Position numbers and translations under genes: made by a program. Of a stretch of DNA of 64,000 bases, positions 47,509 through 52,153 are shown piece by piece. This DNA comes from Candidatus Zixiibacteriota bacterium. Lineage in GTDB: Bacteria; Zixibacteria; MSB-5A5; WJJR01. Under the pieces are notes generated by a model that was not told the origin of the DNA, did not search any database, and saw only the letters and a list, made by a program, of their open reading frames with translations. The stretch lies in contig DASWIS010000035.1 of the NCBI GenBank assembly GCA_036397555.1, forward strand, positions 1 to 64,000, in the 5' to 3' direction. Positions within the stretch are counted from its first letter, which is position 1; every line of letters begins with the position of its first letter.

Positions 47509-48675
47509 ATGGGACTGCTGCTCAACTATAGTCTGCGCAATCTGACCGTACGCAAGCTCACCACAACGCTGACCGTGTTGGGCGTCGGGCTGGTCGTGTT
47601 CGTGTTTGCGGCGGTGTTGATGCTGTCGCACGGTTTGGAGCAGACGTTGGTCGACACCGGCTCGCCTGACAACGCCATCGTCGTGCGCAGCGGGGCGACA
47701 TCGGAGACATTGTCATTGGTGTTGCGCGATCAGGCGGGCGTGGTCGAGACACAGCAGGAAGTCGCCATCGCCGAAGACGGGACCCCCGTTGCGGTGGCCG
47801 AGATTGTCGTGCTGATCAACATCAACAAGCGCGCCAACGACGATCCCTCCAATGTCACGATTCGTGGCACGACCCCGACGGCCTTCGCGCTGCGGCCCGG
47901 CATCCGGATCACTGAAGGGCGCATGTTTAGTCCCGGCACTTCGGAAGTGATCGCCGGATTATCGGTCTCGGAAAACTTCAAGGGGTGCGGCCTCGGTGAG
48001 TCCGCACGATTTGCCGGGCGCGAATGGACCGTGGTCGGCGTCTTCGATGCGGGCGGCACCGGCTGGGATTCGGAACTGTGGGGCGATGTCGAACAGGTGC
48101 AGCAGGCGTTCCGTCGCAATATCTACTCGTCAATGACCGTCAAACTTGCCGATCCGGCGCAATTCGAACAGATGAAGACGCGCCTGGAAGCCGATCCGCG
48201 CATGAGCGTGACCGTGCAGCGCGAAGTCGATTTTTATCGCCGCCAGTCGGTCGCCACATCGTCCTTCATCAAGATCATGGGGCTGGTCATCTCCATCGTC
48301 TTTTCCATCGGCGCGATGATCGGCGCGATGATCACGATGTATGCCGCCGTGGCCAATCGCACGGTCGAGATCGGGACATTGCGGGCGCTCGGATTCTCGC
48401 GCGCGCGGGTGCTGAGCGTCTTTCTCACCGAGGCGATGTGGCTTTCGCTCATTGGCGGCGGAGTCGGACTGGTCGCCGCTTCGTTTATGTCGTTTGTCAC
48501 CATCTCCACCACCAACTGGGACACCTTCTCCGAGCTCGCCTTCGGCTTCGCTTTATCCCCCACGATCATCATCAGTTCCCTGATTTTCGCCGTCGTCATG
48601 GGCATCGCCGGCGGCTTCCTGCCCGCAGTCCGCGCCGCCCGCGCGAAGGTGGTGGATTCGCTGAGGATGGAGTAG
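47509..48675 (+). CDS. ABC transporter permease, FtsX/MacB type (second)
   Basis: The 388-residue protein has the same topology as its neighbour: N-terminal helix (about 18-40), periplasmic domain, three C-terminal helices, and NRTVEIGTLRALGFSRARVL before helix 3. The start lies 3 bp after the previous stop, so the two are translated together. With the adaptor and ATPase it makes a four-gene MacAB-like exporter; the substrate is unknown. Confidence 0.88.
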   Translation: MGLLLNYSLRNLTVRKLTTTLTVLGVGLVVFVFAAVLMLSHGLEQTLVDTGSPDNAIVVRSGATSETLSLVLRDQAGVVETQQEVAIAEDGTPVAVAEIVVLININKRANDDPSNVTIRGTTPTAFALRPGIRITEGRMFSPGTSEVIAGLSVSENFKGCGLGESARFAGREWTVVGVFDAGGTGWDSELWGDVEQVQQAFRRNIYSSMTVKLADPAQFEQMKTRLEADPRMSVTVQREVDFYRRQSVATSSFIKIMGLVISIVFSIGAMIGAMITMYAAVANRTVEIGTLRALGFSRARVLSVFLTEAMWLSLIGGGVGLVAASFMSFVTISTTNWDTFSELAFGFALSPTIIISSLIFAVVMGIAGGFLPAVRAARAKVVDSLRME

Positions 48676-48814
48676 CGTATGAAAACGCCTTACACTTCGA
48701 CCAACGGACGGCGGTTCCAAACGACCTACGCTGCGAATTAGCAAGTTCGTGGACGGGCTTTCAGTATAAGAGTAGATTCGTCCTACACGGATGGCTTGAA
48801 ACATCGTGAGAGAT

Positions 48815-49681
48815 ATGACGGAGCATACAGAGCCGATTCCCTACTGCGCCGCGGGCATTCTACAGCCATACCTGCGCTGGGCGGGCGGCAAGATCAATTT
48901 GATTAATGAGATACTACAGCACATTCCTGAGGACGCAAAGCGACTGAGGTATCACGAGCCGTTTTTGGGTGCGGGCTCACTTTTCTTCGCATTACGGCCA
49001 AGGCATGCTTCACTCTCGGATGCGAATCATCATGTAATCGACTGCCATAGATTCGTGAGAGATTGCCCTGAGCTGATCTACCGTTCCATCCGAAGGTACG
49101 CCAAATCCACCTCCGAACGATACTATTATGAGGTGAGGGAGGCATACAATCGTGGTTCAGCCTCGCCTGCTCAGGCGGCGAGGTTCATTTATCTGAACAA
49201 GACGTGTTTTAATGGGATATTCCGAGTAAACCGCGCAGGCAAGTTCAACGTCCCATACGGATGGAAGGAGCCGCCGTCCTTGCCGAGCTTGGAACTCCTT
49301 CGATCCACTTCCTCAGCGCTCAAGCATGCAAGCCTCAAAGTGCAAAGGTTCGAAGACGCCACGAGTGCAGCCCGACCCGGAGATTTCGTTTATCTCGATC
49401 CTCCGTACCCACCGCTGAATGGTACAGCATATTTCACACACTACACGGAGAATCGATTCTCAATCGCGGATCACAGGAGGGTTGCGGAAGAGGCACAACG
49501 TCTCGACCGCAACGGCTGCCGAGTCTTGATCTCGAATGCCGATGTCCCACTTGTAAGGGAATTGTACCGCGGGTTTTGCGTCCTTCAACTCCCAGCAGTT
49601 CGCTATATTTCATGTAAGCGGGTCAAACACCGGGTCAATGAGCTACTTATAGCAAACTACCGCATGGCGCTCTCGCGATGA
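48815..49681 (+). CDS. Dam-family DNA adenine-N6 methyltransferase (MT-D12)
   Basis: The 288-residue protein follows Dam/DpnM step by step. It has motif X LRWAGGK, motif I EPFLGAGSLFF, IYLNKTCFNGIFRVN and GKFNVPYG, then DPPY (Asp195-Tyr198) in YLDPPYPPLNGTAYFTHY. The TAYFTHYTENRF segment parallels TANFTAYHTNSF of E. coli Dam, so GATC or a related target is likely but unproven. It would transfer a methyl group from S-adenosylmethionine to adenine N6. An in-frame GTG at 48806 is an alternative start. Base composition is visibly lower in GC than the exporter upstream. The next gene follows after 14 bp, which suggests a modification-restriction pair. Confidence 0.88.
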   Translation: MTEHTEPIPYCAAGILQPYLRWAGGKINLINEILQHIPEDAKRLRYHEPFLGAGSLFFALRPRHASLSDANHHVIDCHRFVRDCPELIYRSIRRYAKSTSERYYYEVREAYNRGSASPAQAARFIYLNKTCFNGIFRVNRAGKFNVPYGWKEPPSLPSLELLRSTSSALKHASLKVQRFEDATSAARPGDFVYLDPPYPPLNGTAYFTHYTENRFSIADHRRVAEEAQRLDRNGCRVLISNADVPLVRELYRGFCVLQLPAVRYISCKRVKHRVNELLIANYRMALSR

Positions 49682-49695
49682 ATGGAGGTGGATAA

Positions 49696-51963
49696 GTGCT
49701 TGAGAATGTTCACCCCGTTGAGAGCCTCCGAGCTCTGGCTGCTCGTAAGAGAAGGACCGAGGTCTTCAAATCAGTGGCAACATCAAAGACTGACGAAGCC
49801 CGTGGCGAGGGTTGGTGCATCCAGAAGGCCGGAAAGAGAACGGCCCGCGTCAAAAAGGACAAGTCGAAGAGCACACTCCTTGAGGATCGTGTTTGGTCGG
49901 TCCTTTATACTATGGGATTTGATTTCATGTCTGGAGATGGCGGCGGCAGACTGATCACGTCCGCAAGCGACGACAGCTCCATCACAAATCAGCTCGACGT
50001 CGTGGCGATTGATGCCGACGTTGCAGTTGTTGTAGAATGCAAGTCCGCCAAATCACCACGCAGGGCGAACGCCTTCCAAAATGACTTGGCAAAGCTGAGC
50101 ACGCTTAAGAAGGACTTCAGTTCGGCAGTCAGAAAGATGCTGCCTGACGGTCAAAAACGCACGTTGGTGTTCGCATTCTGGCTTTGGGACATTGAACTCG
50201 GCGAAAGCGACCGCAAACGCACCGAGAAAGAGACAATCGCCGTGCTTGACAAAGAGAATCTAGAGTATTACGAGCAACTGGTCATACACCTTGGCCCGGG
50301 TGCGAAATATCAGTTTCTCGCCGACTTACTACCCGAACGCAAAGTAGGCGGGTTGGAGTCCAGAATCCCCGCCCTACGCGCCAAGATGGGCGGATTCACA
50401 TGCTACACGTTCTCTGTGAAGCCCAGCTATCTTCTGAAGATCGCTTATGTGTCGCATCGAGCAAAGGGCAAGGCATCCGACGTCAACACATACCAGAGAA
50501 TGATCCGCAAGACACGCCTCAAGGCAATACGCGAGTATATCTCGAACGATGGTATGTTTCCAACCAACATCGTGCTGAGTTTTGAGGACAAGCGGATGCT
50601 CCGATTCGAGCCGAAGCACGCGGAAACGGGAGATGAGGGTGGGAGATATGGAGTTCTTCACTTGACTCCGAGGTATCGCGGTGCCTGGATTATCGATGGA
50701 CAGCATCGATTGTTTGCCTATTCCGGACATCCACTCTGCGACAAGAGCTATGTCAGCGTGCTGGCGTTTGAGGGTCTGCCCGCGAACGAACAGGCCCGGC
50801 TCTTCATCGACATCAACCATGAGCAGAAGAGCGTCAAACGGAGCCTCCTACACGAACTCTATGCGGAGCTCCACTGGAACGCCGACGATGTGGAGCTTCG
50901 TACACGTGCCATCGTGTCAAAAGTGATACAAGTGCTTGGACGTGACCCGCATTCACCGTTCAATGAGCGCATCCTTCTTTCGGATGAGCCCGCGACTGAG
51001 AAGCGATGCATCACATTAGAGGCAATGTTCTCTGCGTTGAACATTCCCAGCTTCTTCGTTGTCAAGAAAGACATCCTGTACGGGCCGCTTTGGGCGGTCG
51101 ACAATGAGCTAACTGTCAGAAGAGCATCTGCCATTGTAAATGCATGGTTTCTTAGGATCTGCGAACATGCTGCCGAATGGTGGGCGCTTGGCAAGGCTGA
51201 AGGCGGTGGACTCGCAATGAACGACGGGGTGGTCATCTGTATTGCTGTTCTCCGATCCGTGTTCGACCATTTGGCGCGGAACGGCCTCCCACTGGTTGAG
51301 ATGAGTGAGGAAGAAGTGATTGGTAAGCTTGATCGCTATGGGCACGAGTTGGGAAAATACCTCGGTTCCCTCAACGGAATGGAAAAAGATGCCTTTCGAA
51401 AAGGTCACAGAGGTACCCAAGGACAGACACTCGGGAGGCGAACATGCGAAAGGGCGATAAGGGACTCCATTCCCGAGTTTAATCCCCCTGGGCTCGAGGA
51501 CTTCGTCAAGGATCAGAGTGCACGCACTAACGAAAGAGCGTACCCCATTGTTGAGCGGATCGAAAAGACTCTGAAATTGCTGATTGTCGAAGGATTGCGC
51601 GTGGAATATCAGGAATTGCCGGATGGCGACGCTTGGTGGTACAGCGGTATTCCTGATGAAGTCCGCAAGAAGGCGTCTACCCGACTGGAGGATGAATTAG
51701 GCAAAGGAAACAAGGAGGATTACCTGGAGCTCATCGACTTCCGCAAGATTGTGCTTAAGAACTGGGAAGTGTTCAAGGATACGTTCGCGTATGGTGACAA
51801 GGGCAATAAAGAAAAGCGCACGGAATGGATCGTGAAGGTGAACGACATCCGCAAGATTGTAATGCATCCCGCTAAAAACCGCCAAGTTACGTCCGAGGAT
51901 CTTGTATGGTTGGAGACCTACGAACGATGGTTGACGTCACGCCCGGGTCCCGAAGATGGGTAA
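49696..51963 (+). CDS. Three-domain protein: PD-(D/E)XK nuclease, DGQHR (DndB-like), Swt1-like HEPN
   Basis: The start is a GTG with GGAGGTGG 4 bases upstream; the product has 755 residues. N-terminal (about 55-175): LLEDRVWSVLYTMGF, then Asp101 in NQLDVVAID and Glu114-x-Lys116 in VVECKSAK, the D...ExK core of Mrr-type endonucleases. Centre (about 215-440): WIIDGQHRLFAYSG with DGQHR at 334-338 and INHEQKSVKRSLLHEL, the DGQHR fold shared by DndB/DpdB-type DNA-modification proteins and distantly by ParB. C-terminal (about 680-750): KNWEVFKDTF, then NDIRKIVMHPAK with Arg719-x4-His724, like Swt1-type HEPN RNases. The Dam-type methyltransferase immediately upstream suggests a defence role in which methylation status gates cleavage. 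Domain identities are by motif; function is inference. Confidence 0.75.
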   Translation: MLENVHPVESLRALAARKRRTEVFKSVATSKTDEARGEGWCIQKAGKRTARVKKDKSKSTLLEDRVWSVLYTMGFDFMSGDGGGRLITSASDDSSITNQLDVVAIDADVAVVVECKSAKSPRRANAFQNDLAKLSTLKKDFSSAVRKMLPDGQKRTLVFAFWLWDIELGESDRKRTEKETIAVLDKENLEYYEQLVIHLGPGAKYQFLADLLPERKVGGLESRIPALRAKMGGFTCYTFSVKPSYLLKIAYVSHRAKGKASDVNTYQRMIRKTRLKAIREYISNDGMFPTNIVLSFEDKRMLRFEPKHAETGDEGGRYGVLHLTPRYRGAWIIDGQHRLFAYSGHPLCDKSYVSVLAFEGLPANEQARLFIDINHEQKSVKRSLLHELYAELHWNADDVELRTRAIVSKVIQVLGRDPHSPFNERILLSDEPATEKRCITLEAMFSALNIPSFFVVKKDILYGPLWAVDNELTVRRASAIVNAWFLRICEHAAEWWALGKAEGGGLAMNDGVVICIAVLRSVFDHLARNGLPLVEMSEEEVIGKLDRYGHELGKYLGSLNGMEKDAFRKGHRGTQGQTLGRRTCERAIRDSIPEFNPPGLEDFVKDQSARTNERAYPIVERIEKTLKLLIVEGLRVEYQELPDGDAWWYSGIPDEVRKKASTRLEDELGKGNKEDYLELIDFRKIVLKNWEVFKDTFAYGDKGNKEKRTEWIVKVNDIRKIVMHPAKNRQVTSEDLVWLETYERWLTSRPGPEDG

Positions 51964-52153
51964 GCCTGTCGACGCGTGGCCCGGCCCTCGGTCCGGGTTT
52001 GCCTCCGGTGATCCGACGACTCGGCACTCTCTATGACCCTGGCTGATTCGTGTGATCGCGCTTTTGGCGATTCTGCGAGCGCCTTGAGGCTGCGCCTCAG
52101 CAATGTGAAGGAGACACATCCTTAATCTCTGTTCAAATGCCAAATGTTCGAAA

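Follow-up and report, generated by a model that had tools for sequence, protein, structure and literature searches.

Restriction–modification (R-M) systems that are guarded by suicide RNases, such as PrrC with EcoprrI, are usually multi-protein. Passages of Anantharaman et al. treat the coupling of HEPN RNases to R-M as an established theme, and their 2013 listing includes a Swt1-like HEPN domain fused to ParB, Saro_3948, marked 'mostly active' (PMC3710099). Reviews of Dnd (PMC10853773) and BREX (PMC12839542) count HEPN and restriction endonuclease (REase) domains among the auxiliary or suicide effectors that stand beside modification genes, and PD-Lambda-5 is presented as a highly compacted RM+Abi system (PMC9519451). 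The named marks of the DGQHR domain are a QR pair, the DGQHR pentapeptide and an FxxxN motif (PMC4619093). DndB is reported to be an ATP-dependent repressor (PMC10853773), and a DndB-like protein binds ATP and GTP (PMC12704722).

We analysed the first 64,000 nucleotides of a contig from a Candidatus Zixiibacteriota bacterium (DASWIS010000035.1; the whole stretch is hereafter the window), in which an adenine methylase gene is followed by a gene for a three-domain effector that combines a PD-(D/E)XK nuclease domain, a DGQHR/DndB-like core and a HEPN domain. We found no description of such a chain with a Dam partner in the open papers that we searched. An initial annotation had considered the effector alone; its two-nuclease layout is supported, but the account was incomplete, as the chain is half of a methylase–effector pair. 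Judged from its genes, the pair looks like a phage-defence cassette with a built-in self-destruct.

The methylase–effector gene pair

The first gene of the pair (48,806–49,681, forward strand) encodes a 291-amino-acid adenine-N6 DNA methylase of the DpnM/EcoDam type. It matches TIGR00571 (230 bits) and PF02086 (E = 1e-51), which places it among the Dam-type (D12) enzymes, its closest solved relative is DpnM (2dpm, E = 5e-54), and the LRWAGGK (SAM) and DPPY motifs are intact. An NG-x-x-R-x-N...NVP stretch, which we take to help to read GATC in Dam structures, is present in both methylase subgroups. The window contains 542 GATC sites where 575 are expected; the motif is not depleted, which is uninformative about specificity.

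The effector gene begins 14 nt further on, so that a methylase gene adjoins a nuclease gene, as in a type II R-M layout. Its frame (49,696–51,963, forward strand, 755 amino acids) is open throughout and starts with GTG, 6 nt downstream of a ribosome-binding site, GGAGGT, read directly in the sequence (49,684–49,689, forward strand). Profile matches and a whole-chain AlphaFold2 model (48 homologues as input, mean pLDDT of 87) support the three-domain assignment. The codons of the candidate catalytic residues lie at 49,996–49,998 (D101), 50,035–50,037 (E114), 50,041–50,043 (K116), 51,850–51,852 (R719) and 51,865–51,867 (H724); the residue numbering and the RKIVMH motif given initially are correct in this frame.

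The pair differs from each described system that it resembles. The methylase is closest to DpnM and five homologues of the effector lie within DpnII operons, but no DpnII nuclease stands beside the window cassette, and the nuclease domain of the effector resembles Card1 and Hjc and is joined to DGQHR and HEPN domains. The methylase model of PD-Lambda-5 (PMC9519451) matches the window methylase (E = 2e-12), whereas no partner-protein model of that system matches the effector, and in this the pair differs from PD-Lambda-5. GmrSD type IV restriction enzymes likewise join a ParB/Srx-type DGQxR domain to a DNase on one chain, but GmrD is a C-terminal HNH domain, whereas the effector has an N-terminal PD-(D/E)XK domain, a HEPN domain and a methylase partner (PMC4619093). 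Saro_3948 shares the combination of HEPN and ParB-fold on one chain; its entry in the 2013 listing gives ParB as the sole fusion partner and mentions neither an N-terminal nuclease nor a methylase (PMC3710099).

To collect homologues we aligned the nuclease and C-terminal parts as the query and omitted the DGQHR core, because it might have swamped the result. From GTDB genomes this tailored search returned 56 loci, and from viral contigs 3; scans of GTDB and IMG/VR contigs with a single sequence returned no homologues, and plasmid copies and copies from the same phylum were additional. The 59 effector homologues are mostly 25–45% identical. All 59 were aligned as rows, 57 of which have letters at each motif; alignments A3–A5 exclude the broken or truncated L022, L040, L041 and L048, and invariance over the full chain and the HEPN region refers to 48 complete, diverse members.

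Conserved sites in the three domains

The nuclease domain (residues ~58–211; 49,867–50,328, forward strand), delimited by alignments A3 and A5, profiles and Foldseek, carries the motif E63, D101, E114-C-K116. The model places E63 in helix 58–72, D101 in strand 97–105 and E114 and K116 in strand 109–123, followed by a helix and a strand, which is the order of the PD-(D/E)XK fold. The N-terminal part scores weakly against the Card1 and Hjc nuclease profiles and better against a CARF–PD-(D/E)XK model (E = 6e-8); across the family, Card1_endonuc matches 17 of 48 members and Hjc 15. Foldseek pairs the nuclease part with VC1899, Cdn1 and Card1 at a probability of 1.00 but with E-values of 0.001–0.2. 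Card1/Can2 CARF–PD-(D/E)XK proteins have the nearest nuclease domain by both HMM and fold, although the fold E-values are not significant, and the effector differs in having a DGQHR domain where they have CARF, which was not found in it. In a fold search with the whole model, only the VC1899, Cdn1 and Card1 (nuclease) and Noc and PadC (ParB) matches are plausible, and none of these reaches E < 0.001. Searches of solved structures by sequence, with the family and with its parts as queries, yielded no credible match; a lectin match was discarded as a short repeat, and a HepS match to the HEPN motif (E = 0.39) was rejected.

Between the PD-(D/E)XK and HEPN domains lies a DGQHR/DndB-like domain with a ParB fold (residues 224–493; 50,365–51,174, forward strand), supported by invariant columns, by PF14072, the DndB profile (E = 3e-14), and by TIGR03187 (E = 4e-39; 135 bits against a cut-off of 58.85). 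Its core marks are intact: Q267-R268, the pentapeptide D334–R338 (50,695–50,709, forward strand) and F370xxxN374. Foldseek gives weak matches of this part to the ParB-type proteins Noc and PadC, none below E = 0.001. The DGQHR, QR and FxxxN motifs and the TIGR03187 and DpdB models relate the effector to DndB and DpdB of the Dnd and Dpd systems, but it falls far under the equivalog cut-offs (88 of 300 bits for DpdB, 75 of 450 for DGQHR_dnd_1) and adds nuclease and HEPN domains. A Dnd context was rejected, as a search of the genome found neither dndC nor dndD. Of 132 genomes from the phylum, only 6 contain DGQHR domains.

Two loci of the same phylum (L004:658-2253 and L005:1453-2646) encode DGQHR proteins that lack HEPN and adjoin Dam methylases, and in L004 a GEIDLLF...LLIEVST stretch appears to resemble the nuclease core as D...E-V-S, without the Lys. 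Because these DGQHR-only proteins adjoin Dam genes and L004 is apparently Lys-less, the methylase may be a partner of the DGQHR module rather than of the nuclease.

The C-terminal domain (residues ~600–748; 51,493–51,939, forward strand) is tentatively assigned to the Swt1/Abi2 type of HEPN. PDC-M34B matches this part of the window effector (E = 4e-9), and Pfam HEPN_Swt1 is recognised in 22 of the 48 homologues (best E = 7e-7), the window's own segment not being among them. Modelled alone, the last 159 residues are all-helical (pLDDT of 91), with R719 close to where helix 710–723 ends and H724 just beyond it, the HEPN arrangement with Rx4–6H spacing. The best fold match is AbiF (8vz6, TMq of 0.54), which is not significant and is the sole one above 0.5 among the matches listed. 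Stand-alone relatives of the HEPN region occur in the same phylum (L006:1459-2187 and L007:1321-1890); that of L006 has an N-terminal helix-turn-helix and matches PDC-M34B.

Conservation in this family supports the two-nuclease architecture. Q99, D101, E114, R719 and H724 are invariant in the 48 diverse homologues, as is E63, and the fold predictions agree with both motifs. The initial annotation had asked whether all five candidate residues are invariant; across the 57 homologues this holds for D101 and E114 (57/57 each) and not for position 116 (K in 40, T in 16, R in 1), whereas R719 is kept in 55 and H724 in 56, and neither motif varies freely among close homologues. The exceptions at R719 and H724 are L032, with a degenerate HEPN motif, and L052, which has no HEPN domain and whose letters there come from a fused methylase. 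In the HEPN region, R719 and H724 (alignment A4; 51,850–51,867, forward strand) are the only invariant columns in a domain with a mean column identity of 29%. The residue after R719 varies (N 28, R 12, K 7, T 6, D 2, Q 1, S 1), which makes a Lys there uninformative, and the doubt once raised over the RKIVMH motif has little force. RNase activity had been called the less secure half; this order is now reversed, as the predicted RNase motif is the better conserved of the two and position 116 is Thr or Arg throughout a 17-member clade. The chain appears to carry putative DNA-cutting and RNA-cutting active sites together.

Gene neighbourhoods and partner exchange

The gene neighbourhoods of the 59 homologues fall into two context groups that follow position 116. 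Among the 40 members with Lys116, an adenine methylase gene lies at most two or three genes away in 35. In 30 this is a D12 gene of the window type on the same strand, and in one (L048) a D12 gene on the opposite strand; the others are a fused remnant (L052), divergent D12 genes (L035 and L050) and an MT-A70 gene on the opposite strand (L043). The flanks read of the other five (L045 and L062–L065) contain no methylase.

The 17 members with Thr or Arg at position 116 form one clade (support of 100), and none of their neighbourhoods contains a methylase. All but one (L053) adjoin radical SAM and/or GHKL (HSP90-like) ATPase genes. At these 16 loci (L008, L009, L013, L017, L018, L020–L027, L029, L030 and L057) the partners are a radical SAM protein of ~545 amino acids and/or an ATPase of ~525 amino acids, and some loci add a second, small DGQHR protein and a PIN_8 protein. 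PADLOC models did not match representative radical SAM, ATPase and PIN proteins of these loci, and the gene set may represent a DNA-modification or defence system that has yet to be catalogued. L008, a full-length homologue from Novosphingobium aromaticivorans pNL1 (~32% identical), is very probably Saro_3948 itself; the HEPN–ParB fusion listed in 2013 probably belongs to the effector family. The pNL1 copy differs from the window effector in its Arg in place of the catalytic Lys and in its radical-SAM/ATPase cluster.

On the tree, the link between Lys116 and the methylase comes down to a single loss event. A Fisher test of Lys116 against methylase (p = 7e-10) treats 57 members that are not independent points, and we set it aside, as a single change on the tree accounts for the association. 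Within the Lys116 group the methylase lies either upstream or downstream, with at least six switches of side on the tree; the sister effectors L014 and L015 have it on opposite sides. The window methylase groups with those of L012, L014 and L016 (support of 96), whereas the window effector groups with L010, L019, L066 and L067 (support of 97–99), a disagreement which implies that partners have been exchanged while the pairing was kept. Because of these side switches and discordant trees, the methylase–effector pairing looks to be under selection.

Five Bacteroidota-type loci (L038, L046, L049, L051 and L058) place the effector inside a full DpnII operon, in the order DpnM, DpnII REase (E = 4e-95), effector and N6_N4 methylase. 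These operons already own a restriction enzyme, so the effector there is an extra layer. L035 and L050 have a cluster of a PtuA-like ATPase, a PtuB-like HNH nuclease, the divergent D12 methylase and the DGQHR effector. In L052 (6794-9583) one open reading frame joins nuclease and DGQHR domains to a Dam methylase; as HEPN is missing and the methylase has no N-terminal SAM motif, this is likely to be a decayed fusion and was dropped as support for coupling.

GC content is ~0.53 over the two-gene cassette (window positions 48,500–52,000) and 0.60–0.62 in its flanks, which is consistent with acquisition from elsewhere. A genome of the same family (G128) shares both flanks, the exporter genes to one side and pckA to the other, but has different genes in place of the cassette. 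Both observations are consistent with horizontal acquisition.

Possible modes of action

We consider it somewhat probable that the two genes form a compact R-M-like defence cassette, in which the methylase marks self and the effector cuts unmarked DNA and cellular RNA. The Dam/DpnM-type methylase would mark host DNA, probably at GATC; the ParB-fold DGQHR module, likely to bind NTPs, would sense DNA that lacks the mark or carries a disturbed one; the PD-(D/E)XK domain would then cut the unmarked DNA, and the HEPN domain would cut cellular RNA as an abortive second arm, or suicide arm. Both nuclease sites are presumably active and methylation presumably protects from the DNase; the HEPN trigger and the order of events are as we infer them. 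The joint loss of K116 and the methylase, with HEPN kept, fits this mechanism because a methylation-restrained DNase would be dangerous without its methylase; the co-loss is one event and must be read as one contrast. Several observations weigh against the proposal: five Lys116 members lack a methylase in the flanks read, Dam genes also adjoin DGQHR-only proteins, the DpnII operons already contain a restriction enzyme, and the fold match of the HEPN domain is weak. More tentatively, the effector could be a methylase-gated enzyme in which unmodified DNA leads to the cutting of DNA and then of RNA by one and the same chain; the DGQHR module, likely to bind nucleotides, would switch between the two, and in the sister clade, without the DNase Lys and the methylase, the RNase arm alone could operate under the radical-SAM/GHKL-ATPase set.

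The persistence of R719 and H724 even in the clade without Lys116 and methylase makes HEPN the constant part, and could instead indicate that the effector is mainly a HEPN suicide protein. Its DGQHR module would sense phage (NTP level, or modified DNA or nucleotides) and fire the RNase, the PD-(D/E)XK domain would be a DNA-binding or accessory part and the methylase would only tune sensing; the stand-alone HEPN-region relatives in the phylum agree with this. We find this reading doubtful, as a binding domain would not need a D101 and E114 that never vary or a Lys116 that every one of the 40 members outside a single clade retains, and L032 has lost its HEPN motif yet retains the nuclease motif and the methylase.

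That same locus, together with the methylase pairing, would suit a two-gene R-M system in which the effector is simply the cognate restriction enzyme and its HEPN fold serves only for nucleic-acid binding or dimerisation, without cutting RNA. This is improbable given that R719 and H724 are the sole invariants of a highly divergent domain, a signature of catalysis rather than of a scaffold; L052, in which HEPN was lost through methylase fusion, also lost the N-terminal SAM motif of the methylase and looks decayed. A further reading makes the effector a DndB-like regulator of the methylase, or a clamp for it, in which neither nuclease fold is active. The repressor role of DndB itself is a precedent (PMC10853773), but this reading is very improbable, as two unused active sites would hardly stay intact over ~40 diverse members and the genome lacks dndC and dndD.

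If the pair is the R-M-like defence cassette proposed here, it holds both blades and the DGQHR module on one chain, with one methylase, so that two genes and a set of point mutants could serve to test how restriction is coupled to abortive infection. The family is itself a natural experiment, in which the DNase Lys and the methylase were lost together in one clade and HEPN stays. Such a cassette would indicate a function of DGQHR domains outside phosphorothioation.
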